34,181 bases of DNA from Alphaproteobacteria bacterium. Lineage in GTDB: Bacteria > Pseudomonadota > Alphaproteobacteria > UBA9219. Shown here one piece after another: positions 22,666-25,806 of the stretch. Under the pieces are notes generated by a model. The model was not told where the DNA came from and did no database searches. It worked only from the letters and a program-made list of their open reading frames with translations. The stretch is from the NCBI GenBank assembly GCA_031291435.1, contig JARLJC010000031.1, positions 1 to 34,181 of the forward strand. The letters run 5' to 3'. The position numbers and the translations under genes are program-made. How positions within the stretch are numbered: the stretch's first letter is position 1; each line of letters starts with the position of its first letter.

Positions 22666-25600
22666 ATGTCTCTGCGTAAACTTTCCCCAGCTTTAGCCGC
22701 CGCGTTTTTGGCCTTCATTTTGTGCGCCGCGACCCAGGCGGATATTCCCGCCGCTCCCGATGCGCGCCTTGTGCCCGCCGTCCAGACCTATGCCGAGCAG
22801 GCGGTGCCGGTAGCGCCCCCGCCCGCGCAGTCTTATTATAATTCGCCATTGGCCGCCGGGACGCTGACGCTTCAGGACGTGCTCGAAGCCCATAAACCGG
22901 CCGAACCCGCGATGCTGCCGGTGATCGGCGCGCCCACCCCCTCGGCGACCACGACCGCGCCCATTCTCACGCCGCAGACGCAGGCCAGTTCGACCAGCCT
23001 GATGATGTCGCAGGGCATGAAGGACGTATTACAGAAGGTAGATAACGGCGCCGCACCGGTTCAGGTCGGCCCCGTGGTCGGGACGCAGGCTTTGCATGCG
23101 CCCACGCCGCTAGTTCCGGCGGAAACGTCCGCGCCGGTTGCCGGAATCCAGTATCAGCCCGGACAGGCCCCCAAAAATCTCGGTAATTTGCAGACAGGCA
23201 CGCCCGCTAGTTCCGCCGCGCCTGTCGCCGCCGGTTCGTCGGTTCCCGCTGCCACCGGTTCCTCGACTCCCGCCGCGCCGCCCGCGCTTGCCGGCGGCAA
23301 TTGCGACGAAAAAGTTCAGAAATGGGAAAAGACCTGCGGCGACGCCGGTTACCCCGCTAATTATCTCGGCCAGATCGTCGGCGAAACCCATACCGGCTGC
23401 GCCGACGGCGCTTTGCACGATATCTGGGTCAGCAACAGCTGCGTGCCGCCCGAAAACGCGACGGCGGACAGCCCCAAGGTCGATGCCGTCTGCGGCCCCG
23501 CTTCCAACAATGAATTCGATGCCACCCCCGCCGCCAATCTCTGCGCGCAGGGTATGGCCAGCGCCGTCAGCGGCGAAGGCCCGTGGACATGGGCCTGCTC
23601 CGGCGCTAACGGCGGCAACGCCGCCGCCTGCACCGCGCGTAAACGCGAACCGATCAGCAACGGCATCTGCGGCGGCGCCAACGGCGCGGCCACCGATACC
23701 GCACCCATCGACGATCTTTGCACCTCGGGCGCGCCGTCGGAAATCAGCGGTTCGGGCCCCTGGACATGGCAATGCAAGGGCCGCGGCAACGGCAGCAGCG
23801 AAAGCTGCATCGCGCCGCGCACCGCCGCCGCGATGGCGGCTGGCGCTGCCGCTGCGGTCGTGGCCGCCAATCCTGCACCTGCCGAAAGCAAACCTGTCGC
23901 CAGCAAGCCGGCTGTGGCCGAAAAAGCCGCCGTCGCGGCGACGCAAGCGCCTGCCGCTGCCCCTACCGAAAAGGGCGAATTGTGCGGCGAAGCGGCGGAA
24001 ACGCTGGCCTATCAGGCCCCCGAAAAAGATTTGTGCCGCGTCGGCAATGCCAGCGCCATCGACGGCGAAGGGCCGTGGACTTGGTCATGTACTGACAATG
24101 ATGGGCGCAGCTCGCATTGCCGTACGCTCTCTCTGACCGAAGGCAAGCCCGCCGCCGAAGAAGCCGCGCCGGTCAAGTCTGCCGCCGAAACCGCCGCAGC
24201 TTTGCCAGAACCCGAAGCCGCGCATGCCAGGGGCGGCCCGCGCGTCGATGCCGTGCCGCCGCCCGCGCCGGTTTCCACCGAACTCACTTGCGGCATCGCC
24301 GCCTCGCAGGGCACTTTGGTGCGCCCCGCCGCCGAACTCTGCGTCAACGGCAAAGCCAGTTCCGTGCGCGGCAGCGGCCCGTGGCGCTGGACCTGCACCA
24401 AGGGCAAACATAAAGTCGCCTGCGAAACGCCGAAGATCGTCGATGGCTCATGCGGCGCCGCCAACGGCACCGCGCTTAAATCCGCGCCTTTCGCCGGGTT
24501 GTGCTCGGCGGGAACGCCGACCGGCATCGAAGGCAACGGGCCCTGGACATGGAGCTGCGCCGGTACCGGCGGCGGCGTGAATGTCAGCTGCGCCGCCTCG
24601 CGTCAGGGCCGCGTCGACGGCACCTGCGGCTCCTCCGCCAATACCGTGCGCGAAAACGCACCGAGCGAAGGTCTGTGCTCGACCGGCACCGCCAGCGACG
24701 TCAACGGCGCCGGCCCCTGGACATGGTCATGCTCGGGTGCGGCGGGCGGCGGCGTCAGTTCCTGCGCGGCTACCAAAGTCGCCGCCACCGAACCGCCCGG
24801 CCCCAAAGTCGGCGGCCTTTGCGGCACCGCTAACGGCCTGATGGCAACCTCAGCACCTACCGAAGGCCTGTGCGCCAACGGCACCGTCACCCCCGTGGTC
24901 GGCGACGGCCCGTGGAACTGGAGCTGCCTCGGCGAAAATGGCGGTATGACCGTCAGCTGCACCGCGCCCATGCAGCCGCCTGCACCCATCGACGGCATCT
25001 GCGGTCAGGCCAGCGGCATCGAAACTCTGGTCAAACCCGAAGGTGGTCTCTGTGCCTCGGGCATCACCGGCACCGTCAGCGGGCGCGGCCCGTGGACATG
25101 GACTTGCTCCGGCGTCAATGGCGGCAGCCCTGTTTCCTGCGTCGCCCCCGTGGCGGGCCGCAGCAGCGCCACACCTTCGGTGACGACCGCCGGCTCGCCG
25201 CTCGACTCGACTGCCAACGACGCCAACGCCAAACCGATCACGCCGAAACATAACGGTCTGGTGACGCCGCATCTGCCCGCGCCAAAGGCCGCACCGGCCT
25301 ATGACGATCTGGCCTCACCTCCGGCGGCTTCGTCGCAAACGCTCGAAACGCCGAAACTCGCGGGCAAGGTAGCGGAATCCGATACCTCGACGCTCGAAGA
25401 TTCCGGCATGGTGTCGCCGCCGCTCGACGATTCCGCGATCAAGGAAACCGAAGGCGAACATGCCGCGCATATCGCGGGCAATCACCTGACGCTCGATCCG
25501 ACCATCTCGACGGTTCTGTTCACGCGCGGTTCGGGCAATATCGACGAAACGGTTCTCACCACGCTCGACAAGCTTTCCTCGGTGCTGACCTCGAATCCCG

Positions 25601-25806
25601 ATGTCCGCATCACCCTGCTTGCCTATGCCGACAATGCCGGGTCGAGCCCGCGCGACGCCCGCCGCCTCAGCCTGACAAGGGCGCTGGCGGTACGCGATTA
25701 CCTTGCCGCGCATGGGGTGGCGACCAGCCGCGTCGATGTCCGCGCCGAGGGGGCGAATACGACCTCCGGCTATATCGACCGGGTCGATGTGAAGGTTAAC
25801 GATTAG
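22666..25806 (+). CDS. Large exported protein with eight four-cysteine GPWxW modules and OmpA-like C-terminus
   Basis: A 1046-residue protein with a signal peptide (about residues 1-25, ending ATQA). An Ala/Pro/Thr-rich region to about 210 follows. A four-Cys segment (Cys213 to Cys259) precedes eight modules of about 47 residues between residues 276 and 825. After an Ala/Pro/Ser/Thr linker comes an OmpA-like peptidoglycan-binding domain at about 943-1046 (VRITLLAYADNAGSSPRDARRLSLTRA, VRDYLAAHGV). Each module follows C-G-x15-C, then G-x-GPWxW-x-C, then a GG-rich loop and a final Cys. Paired disulfides in the periplasm or at the surface are likely. The OmpA domain would tether it to the cell wall. 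I recognise no named family for the modules, though similar GPWxWxC repeats occur in other bacterial surface proteins. Role unknown: adhesion, wall integrity or carbohydrate binding are possible. Confidence 0.85.
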   Translation: MSLRKLSPALAAAFLAFILCAATQADIPAAPDARLVPAVQTYAEQAVPVAPPPAQSYYNSPLAAGTLTLQDVLEAHKPAEPAMLPVIGAPTPSATTTAPILTPQTQASSTSLMMSQGMKDVLQKVDNGAAPVQVGPVVGTQALHAPTPLVPAETSAPVAGIQYQPGQAPKNLGNLQTGTPASSAAPVAAGSSVPAATGSSTPAAPPALAGGNCDEKVQKWEKTCGDAGYPANYLGQIVGETHTGCADGALHDIWVSNSCVPPENATADSPKVDAVCGPASNNEFDATPAANLCAQGMASAVSGEGPWTWACSGANGGNAAACTARKREPISNGICGGANGAATDTAPIDDLCTSGAPSEISGSGPWTWQCKGRGNGSSESCIAPRTAAAMAAGAAAAVVAANPAPAESKPVASKPAVAEKAAVAATQAPAAAPTEKGELCGEAAETLAYQAPEKDLCRVGNASAIDGEGPWTWSCTDNDGRSSHCRTLSLTEGKPAAEEAAPVKSAAETAAALPEPEAAHARGGPRVDAVPPPAPVSTELTCGIAASQGTLVRPAAELCVNGKASSVRGSGPWRWTCTKGKHKVACETPKIVDGSCGAANGTALKSAPFAGLCSAGTPTGIEGNGPWTWSCAGTGGGVNVSCAASRQGRVDGTCGSSANTVRENAPSEGLCSTGTASDVNGAGPWTWSCSGAAGGGVSSCAATKVAATEPPGPKVGGLCGTANGLMATSAPTEGLCANGTVTPVVGDGPWNWSCLGENGGMTVSCTAPMQPPAPIDGICGQASGIETLVKPEGGLCASGITGTVSGRGPWTWTCSGVNGGSPVSCVAPVAGRSSATPSVTTAGSPLDSTANDANAKPITPKHNGLVTPHLPAPKAAPAYDDLASPPAASSQTLETPKLAGKVAESDTSTLEDSGMVSPPLDDSAIKETEGEHAAHIAGNHLTLDPTISTVLFTRGSGNIDETVLTTLDKLSSVLTSNPDVRITLLAYADNAGSSPRDARRLSLTRALAVRDYLAAHGVATSRVDVRAEGANTTSGYIDRVDVKVND
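23491..25140 (+). repeat. Eight coding repeats (four-Cys GPWxW modules)
   Basis: First-Cys to last-Cys spans are 23491-23631, 23668-23808, 23983-24120, 24289-24423, 24451-24591, 24625-24765, 24820-24960 and 25000-25140. Six are exactly 141 bases (47 codons); the third is 138 and the fourth 135. In the 47-residue copies the cysteine spacing is 17, 18 and 11 residues. Long Ala/Pro-rich linkers follow modules 2 and 3, while modules 4-8 are nearly contiguous. Confidence 0.9.

Follow-up and report, generated by a model that had tools for sequence, protein, structure and literature searches.

An unnamed four-cysteine GPWxW module arrayed on an OmpA-domain protein of an alphaproteobacterial order

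What is the eightfold cysteine-rich array that precedes the OmpA-like domain of a 1046-residue alphaproteobacterial protein, where in the cell might it work, and from what did it arise? The gene lies in a window of 34,181 nucleotides (the whole stretch of DNA analysed here), where it adjoins the LPS genes kdtA and lpxK, with glycosyltransferase genes near. The protein consists, in this order, of a signal peptide, a Pro/Ala-rich segment, an N-terminal four-cysteine domain, eight GPWxW modules, a low-complexity linker, and the OmpA-like domain (Table 1). Cleavage of the signal peptide, placed by eye, would follow ...ATQA; a lipobox scan found no lipobox, and the hydropathy profile has no hydrophobic stretch past the signal peptide. 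In searches of Pfam, NCBIfam, and PHROGs at E up to 1, the OmpA-like region was matched and otherwise only a module, by phrog_34142 (E 0.74); no barrel was found in the protein with these libraries.

Table 1. Coordinates of the features discussed (window positions, unless a locus is named)
Feature	Location	Strand	Basis or remark
Whole gene, 1046 aa	22666..25806	+	ORF call; relatives aligned; three parts share one frame
Predicted Sec signal peptide, residues 1-25	22666..22740	+	sequence, hydropathy, lipobox scan
Pro/Ala/Ser/Thr-rich segment, cysteine-free	22741..23280	+	composition, residues 31-205
N-terminal four-Cys domain, Cys213-Cys259, spacing 11-21-14	23302..23442	+	
Module 1, 17-18-11, GPWTW	23491..23631	+	
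Module 2, 17-18-11, GPWTW	23668..23808	+	
Module 3, 17-18-10, GPWTW	23983..24120	+	
Module 4, 17-18-9, GPWRW	24289..24423	+	
Module 5, 17-18-11, GPWTW	24451..24591	+	also AlphaFold model with module 6
Module 6, 17-18-11, GPWTW	24625..24765	+	also AlphaFold model with module 5
Module 7, 17-18-11, GPWNW	24820..24960	+	
Module 8, 17-18-11, GPWTW	25000..25140	+	
Ser/Thr/Ala/Pro-rich linker, cysteine-free	25141..25500	+	
OmpA-like domain (PF00691), D989 and R1005 present	25516..25761	+	residues 951-1032
f2 loci with the four-Cys domain after the modules	L111:6340-9582; L112:7292-10876; L113:124-3339; L147:1-1809; L149:1625-4060		
efp, inositol monophosphatase, OmpA-domain protein, MotA/ExbB-like, MotB-like	L132:1018-5535; L136:1032-5515; L141:687-6012		

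The initial annotation had placed eight four-cysteine GPWxW modules at 23491..25140, and the first and last cysteine codons of the array do begin and end there. The modules occupy residues 276-825, with the motif at residues 305, 364, 469, 571, 625, 683, 748, and 808, that is, in all eight; it reads GPWTW in six, and GPWRW and GPWNW once each. The cysteine spacing of 17-18-11, spanning 47 residues, holds in six of the eight exactly as annotated (17-18-10 and 17-18-9 occur once each), and 13 of 51 alignment columns are invariant among the eight copies. A profile search of the protein's own genome recovered exactly these eight modules, with E-values from 9.7e-23 (best) to 9.1e-20 (weakest), which are flattered because the profile was built from the same copies. 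The building of a profile and its use on other genomes, as the annotation had proposed, did bring up copies of the same spacing independent of the window. The fetched loci L017-L097 hold 424 modules in 90 ORFs, and 214 of the 394 with exactly four cysteines have the 17-18-11 spacing. Across 1591 distinct modules, a set selected for four cysteines, G2, P13, L17, G21, W32, and W34 are kept at 96-100%, and the variable positions are the x of GPWxW and the one after the second tryptophan.

The module had no name that the first reading recognised, and none has emerged from the libraries searched. The window's module pair has no match in Pfam or NCBIfam at E up to 0.1, no PDB sequence matches the module, and the Pfam family of known role that would have named it was not found. 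When 98 module pairs were run, in searches that give E-values and print no curated cut-offs, zf-CW was matched by one pair (0.001) and DERM by one (0.091), and four NCBIfam models were matched by one member each, the best at 0.059; the PHROGs matches are weak and belong nearly all to unnamed families. Structure prediction, also proposed at the outset, gave a confident AlphaFold model of modules 5-6 (mean pLDDT 93.2) in which everything is beta and each module forms a domain of about 57 residues; the relative placing of the two is uncertain, given a pTM of 0.57. In the model the two motif tryptophans and a cysteine alternate along one predicted strand, so that the three side chains should point to the same side, the core being the simplest choice. 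The GPWxW tryptophans thus look structural rather than like a ligand site.

This bears directly on the suggestion that the module binds carbohydrate, for which we found no support. The reading would have the tryptophans of each module bind a sugar, the array gaining avidity for peptidoglycan, LPS, or EPS, and it draws on the two near-invariant tryptophans per module, on the multivalent layout, and on the location of the gene next to kdtA and lpxK, with glycosyltransferase genes in the vicinity. Against it stand the alternation along one strand just described, the absence of any match to a carbohydrate-binding Pfam family among the 98 module pairs, and the gene neighbourhood in relatives: kdtA and lpxK lie upstream in only two of 27 other loci of the order (L098 and L099), both of the window's own genus, and at L100 and L101 the upstream genes are others. 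We regard a glycan-binding array as very unlikely.

The cysteines give the protein a regular design. Apart from Cys20 in the signal peptide, all of its 37 cysteines (36/36 past that peptide) sit in nine four-cysteine units: 32 in the modules and Cys213, Cys224, Cys245, and Cys259 in the N-terminal domain. A protein search found 397 relatives among 7992 candidates scored, and among the best 120 of the 397, the window's own protein included, 106 carry this N-terminal domain and are called family members below. In 100 of these 106 the cysteine count from residue 41 is a multiple of four, and a PF00691 domain is present on 114 of the 120. Those few of the 120 that bear organism names are mostly Alphaproteobacteria, with three Bdellovibrionales.

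Cys213-Cys259 had been read as a possibly diverged member of the array. The 47-residue span with a different spacing (11-21-14) stands; the kinship does not, as the stretch lacks GPWxW, is missed by the module profile, and aligns to it with an hhalign probability of 1.0 percent over 8 columns. It is a domain of its own, conserved in spacing (11-21-14 in 105 of the 106 and 12-21-14 in one) and order-specific in the samples searched. It occurs in 28 of 33 genomes of the window's order (20 of the 21 with completeness of 90% or more and contamination of 5% or less) and, in a class sample searched with at most 17 candidates scored per genome, in five of 385 genomes, all five of the order, and in none of the other 380. 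The order genomes that lack it are four incomplete ones (62-82%) and G011, 99% complete, with one module; two order genomes have a second, weak match. The domain, at least one module, and an OmpA domain share one frame in 26 of the 28 genomes, the window's included; of the two exceptions, one is cut by a contig end (L114) and the other stops 19 bases short of one (L142). In family f2, at all five loci, the domain lies between the modules and the OmpA domain, which weakens the idea that it forms the tip of the protein.

The attachment of an OmpA-like domain, as annotated, holds with a margin: residues 951-1032 score 50.5 bits against the PF00691 cut-off of 27.2. In an alignment with 6top, a solved OmpA-family protein, D989 and R1005 fall on an Asp and an Arg; we take this pair to be the DAP contacts in OmpA. 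Of 106 family members, 105 retain the Arg, as do all ten orthologues from the class, whereas 63 of the 106 and one of the ten retain the Asp, so that wall binding may be weak or absent. Judged by these residues, docking on the wall is plausible for the window protein and not a safe assumption for the family. The window protein and the class orthologues have in common the subfamily pattern ARRLSLxRALAVR...RIDVRA.G, and a lipobox-like pattern in the first 60 residues is found in three of the 106 relatives.

Within the order the protein is present in most genomes, with one to 12 modules. The 106 family members have eight (19 proteins), 11 (42), or 12 (45), in a search that admits only lengths of 0.55-1.75 times the query; loci of the window's genus have three, three, four, and eight. 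Such variation speaks against a measured ruler. It would also suit a neutral reading, in which a lineage-specific repeat merely lengthens a linker and has no partner, as would the fact that the class orthologues examined manage with a low-complexity linker. Yet among the longer relatives the modules keep their individual identities. In 18 eight-module relatives, seven window modules find their match at their own position in 17-18 of the 18 and module 6 in 13. Against the 11- and 12-module relatives, modules 3, 4, 5, 7, and 8 each have one predominant position (at least 28 of 45), and module 1 maps to one position in 31 of 42 and 25 of 45, respectively; modules 2 and 6 have no clean mapping. 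This position-specific identity, above all of modules 1, 3, 4, 5, 7, and 8, together with the near-constant spacing of the four-cysteine domain, makes a purely neutral filler quite unlikely.

The module was found in 30 of the 33 order genomes, the window's own included (21 of 21 at the completeness and contamination thresholds given above). Searches that scored at most 17 candidates per genome found it in five order genomes and one other of the class sample (that is, 1/380 outside the order), and in seven of 398 genomes of a phylum sample, five of them outside the class. A scan of named genomes yielded 92 relatives among 136 pattern stretches; 79 loci were kept, whose titles name Alpha-, Beta-, Gamma-, and Deltaproteobacteria, Myxococcota, Nitrospirae, Kiritimatiellae, a cyanobacterium, Patescibacteria groups, Micrarchaeota, and Woesearchaeota. 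Individual MAGs, the archaeal ones in particular, may contain binning errors. Two archaeal-titled loci (L048:5674-7281 and L065:5554-6729) carry modules on ORFs with a pilin-like N terminus, recognised in L048 by a class III signal just under the Pfam cut-off and in L065 by eye. Two IMG/VR contigs have one module each (L096:4641-5666 and L097:3582-5246). Within the window's genus, a 1.5 Mb genome (G004) is matched 46 times by the module at E 1e-6, with the matches spread over at least eight ORFs, and its OmpA-type protein (L143) bears three modules only.

Of 26 module proteins outside the window that were compared with Pfam, 18 have a match (L048 and L058 below the cut-off only) and eight have none. 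The partner domains include PKD, Laminin_G_3, NHL, SBBP, fn3, Calx-beta, Peptidase_S8, the N_methyl pilin domain, the class III signal sequence, beta-propeller domains, and, in P0116, OmpA. With partners so varied, the module appears to be a general extracytoplasmic building block and not an accessory of OmpA domains. Since the proteins that carry the module elsewhere look like surface proteins, the array could also lie outside the cell, as a surface adhesin that crosses the outer membrane and attaches to prey, to a host, or to minerals, with the OmpA-like domain as its inner anchor. The partners Laminin_G_3, PKD, fn3, Calx-beta, NHL, beta-propeller, and N_methyl and the archaeal class III signal fit such a role. 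So does the company of the window's order, which seems to include Micavibrio-labelled genomes and probably consists of relatives of Micavibrio, a group including predators of other bacteria; Micavibrio is described as feeding while attached to its prey (PMC3189940). Two Micavibrio sp.-titled loci have four and three adjacent ORFs with one to ten modules each (L042:3710-10761 and L051:5092-9859), and in the main text of the ARL-13 genome paper the word OmpA does not occur and adhesin occurs once. An adhesin sits badly with the lack of a barrel and a lipobox in the window protein, with the plain build of ten class orthologues (below), and with the presence of the protein in most genomes of the order, whatever their lifestyle. 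We consider it unlikely, although less so than a neutral filler.

The OmpA-like domain points to the origin of the protein. With a threshold of 1e-6 it is matched in 35 of 58 genomes of the class, its own included. Among the 34 apart from its own, 26 have the best match 1.4-3.8 kb downstream of efp on the same strand; in the other eight, the two genes are split between contigs six times and lie 100 kb apart once, and one genome lacks an efp match. In the reverse direction, ten efp-linked OmpA domains were tried, and all nine with a match picked the window locus over the other OmpA places of this genome (five in total). Reciprocal best matches and gene position in relatives thus indicate that the window's domain is probably that of a protein found across the Alphaproteobacteria, whose gene follows efp and one for an inositol monophosphatase. 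The orthology is claimed through relatives and the domain match because the window locus itself, like all eight other loci of its genus, is not at efp. The window genome's own efp locus is without the efp-linked protein, the OmpA domain there being that of a barrel protein.

Elsewhere in the order, 11 of 27 other loci with the four-cysteine domain are preceded on the same strand by efp and the inositol monophosphatase gene (six in family f1, three in f2, and two in f3), the neighbours being Pfam-checked in five of the 11; at L105 a 145-aa ORF intervenes. Among the 16 remaining loci, several are short or truncated at a contig end. The corresponding place in class genomes is often occupied by the gene of an OmpA-domain protein with a low-complexity linker, followed by MotA/ExbB-like and MotB-like genes. 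At the three class loci run against Pfam, MotA_ExbB was over the cut-off in one, below it in one, and absent in one, and OmpA was found in all three MotB-like proteins. No paper on, or published name for, this efp-linked OmpA/MotA/MotB locus was found in a literature search. The MotA-like gene, searched with one query from one class genome, is unmatched in 29 of 33 order genomes, remotely matched in three, and strongly matched in G015, an assembly with 9% contamination. In the order, the linker has apparently been replaced or invaded by one to 12 modules. As a separate observation, PPP occurs in 92 of the 106 family members, and efp is a frequent upstream neighbour in the order. The efp product helps ribosomes through poly-Pro, and a regulatory link between the two may exist.

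Taken together, the data lead us, tentatively and at somewhat less than an even chance, to a periplasmic, wall-associated modular arm, in which eight modules stand between an order-specific four-cysteine domain and an OmpA-like domain. The protein would be exported by Sec and its cysteines oxidised by the Dsb pathway; DsbB is found in 30 of the 33 order genomes, the window's own included. The OmpA-like domain would dock on peptidoglycan and hold the wall, while the modules, as predicted small beta domains braced by disulfides on which the GPWxW tryptophans pack as core residues, would form a stiff, protease-resistant spacer. The other four-cysteine domain, or position-specific faces of single modules, might then meet an envelope partner. 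The array would have taken the place of an ancestral low-complexity linker early in the order.

A wider synthesis is more doubtful. The module may be an undescribed inter-phylum extracytoplasmic domain of bacteria and archaea, among the smallest doubly disulfide-stapled Ig-like folds. This order would have inserted as many as twelve copies of it into an OmpA protein that had once been tied to a motor, and so have made a strut that links the wall with the outer envelope; the motor would then have been dropped, a loss seen for the MotA-like gene.

The domain is real and unnamed, the architecture that carries it is conserved and lineage-specific, and an arm of variable length is the best-supported reading. 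A many-copy domain with a rigid cysteine and tryptophan pattern, present in bacterial and archaeal-titled records, has had no name in Pfam or NCBIfam, and with a profile of it many surface proteins that are now unnamed could be annotated. The protein of this order is, moreover, a natural experiment in which a folded array has apparently taken over from the linker of an OmpA protein and a MotA-like gene has been lost, and it makes the alphaproteobacterial efp-linked OmpA/MotA/MotB locus testable.

Among known systems, the module is new to Pfam and NCBIfam, while the kind of protein, an OmpA domain with an extracytoplasmic array, is already known. With the family of OmpA, Pal, MotB, and YiaD the window protein shares its C-terminal PF00691 domain, which scores over the Pfam cut-off; it differs in that neither barrel nor lipobox was found in it, and its Asp is not kept family-wide. 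The class efp-linked OmpA protein has a reciprocal best OmpA domain with the window protein, and in three families of the order the genes occupy the same place. It differs in the rest: at ten loci viewed (three by Pfam) it has 205-843 aa and comprises an N-terminal stretch, a low-complexity and often Pro-rich linker, and the OmpA domain only, with no modules. With the adhesion proteins of Micavibrio and other predators, the common ground would be lineage only. G5-type domains of staphylococcal SasG/Aap resemble Cys213-Cys259 at a weak Z, with the following rows nearly tied; the likeness could reflect a common arrangement, and the four cysteines set the domain apart from them. Finally, like the Ig-like, cadherin, and Big/Rib domains of adhesins and S-layer proteins, the module is predicted to be a small beta domain; over 50-59 residues, single modules superpose at 2.3-3.4 A on SlpX, Big_2, Rib, N-cadherin, and Ig domains, a weak likeness.
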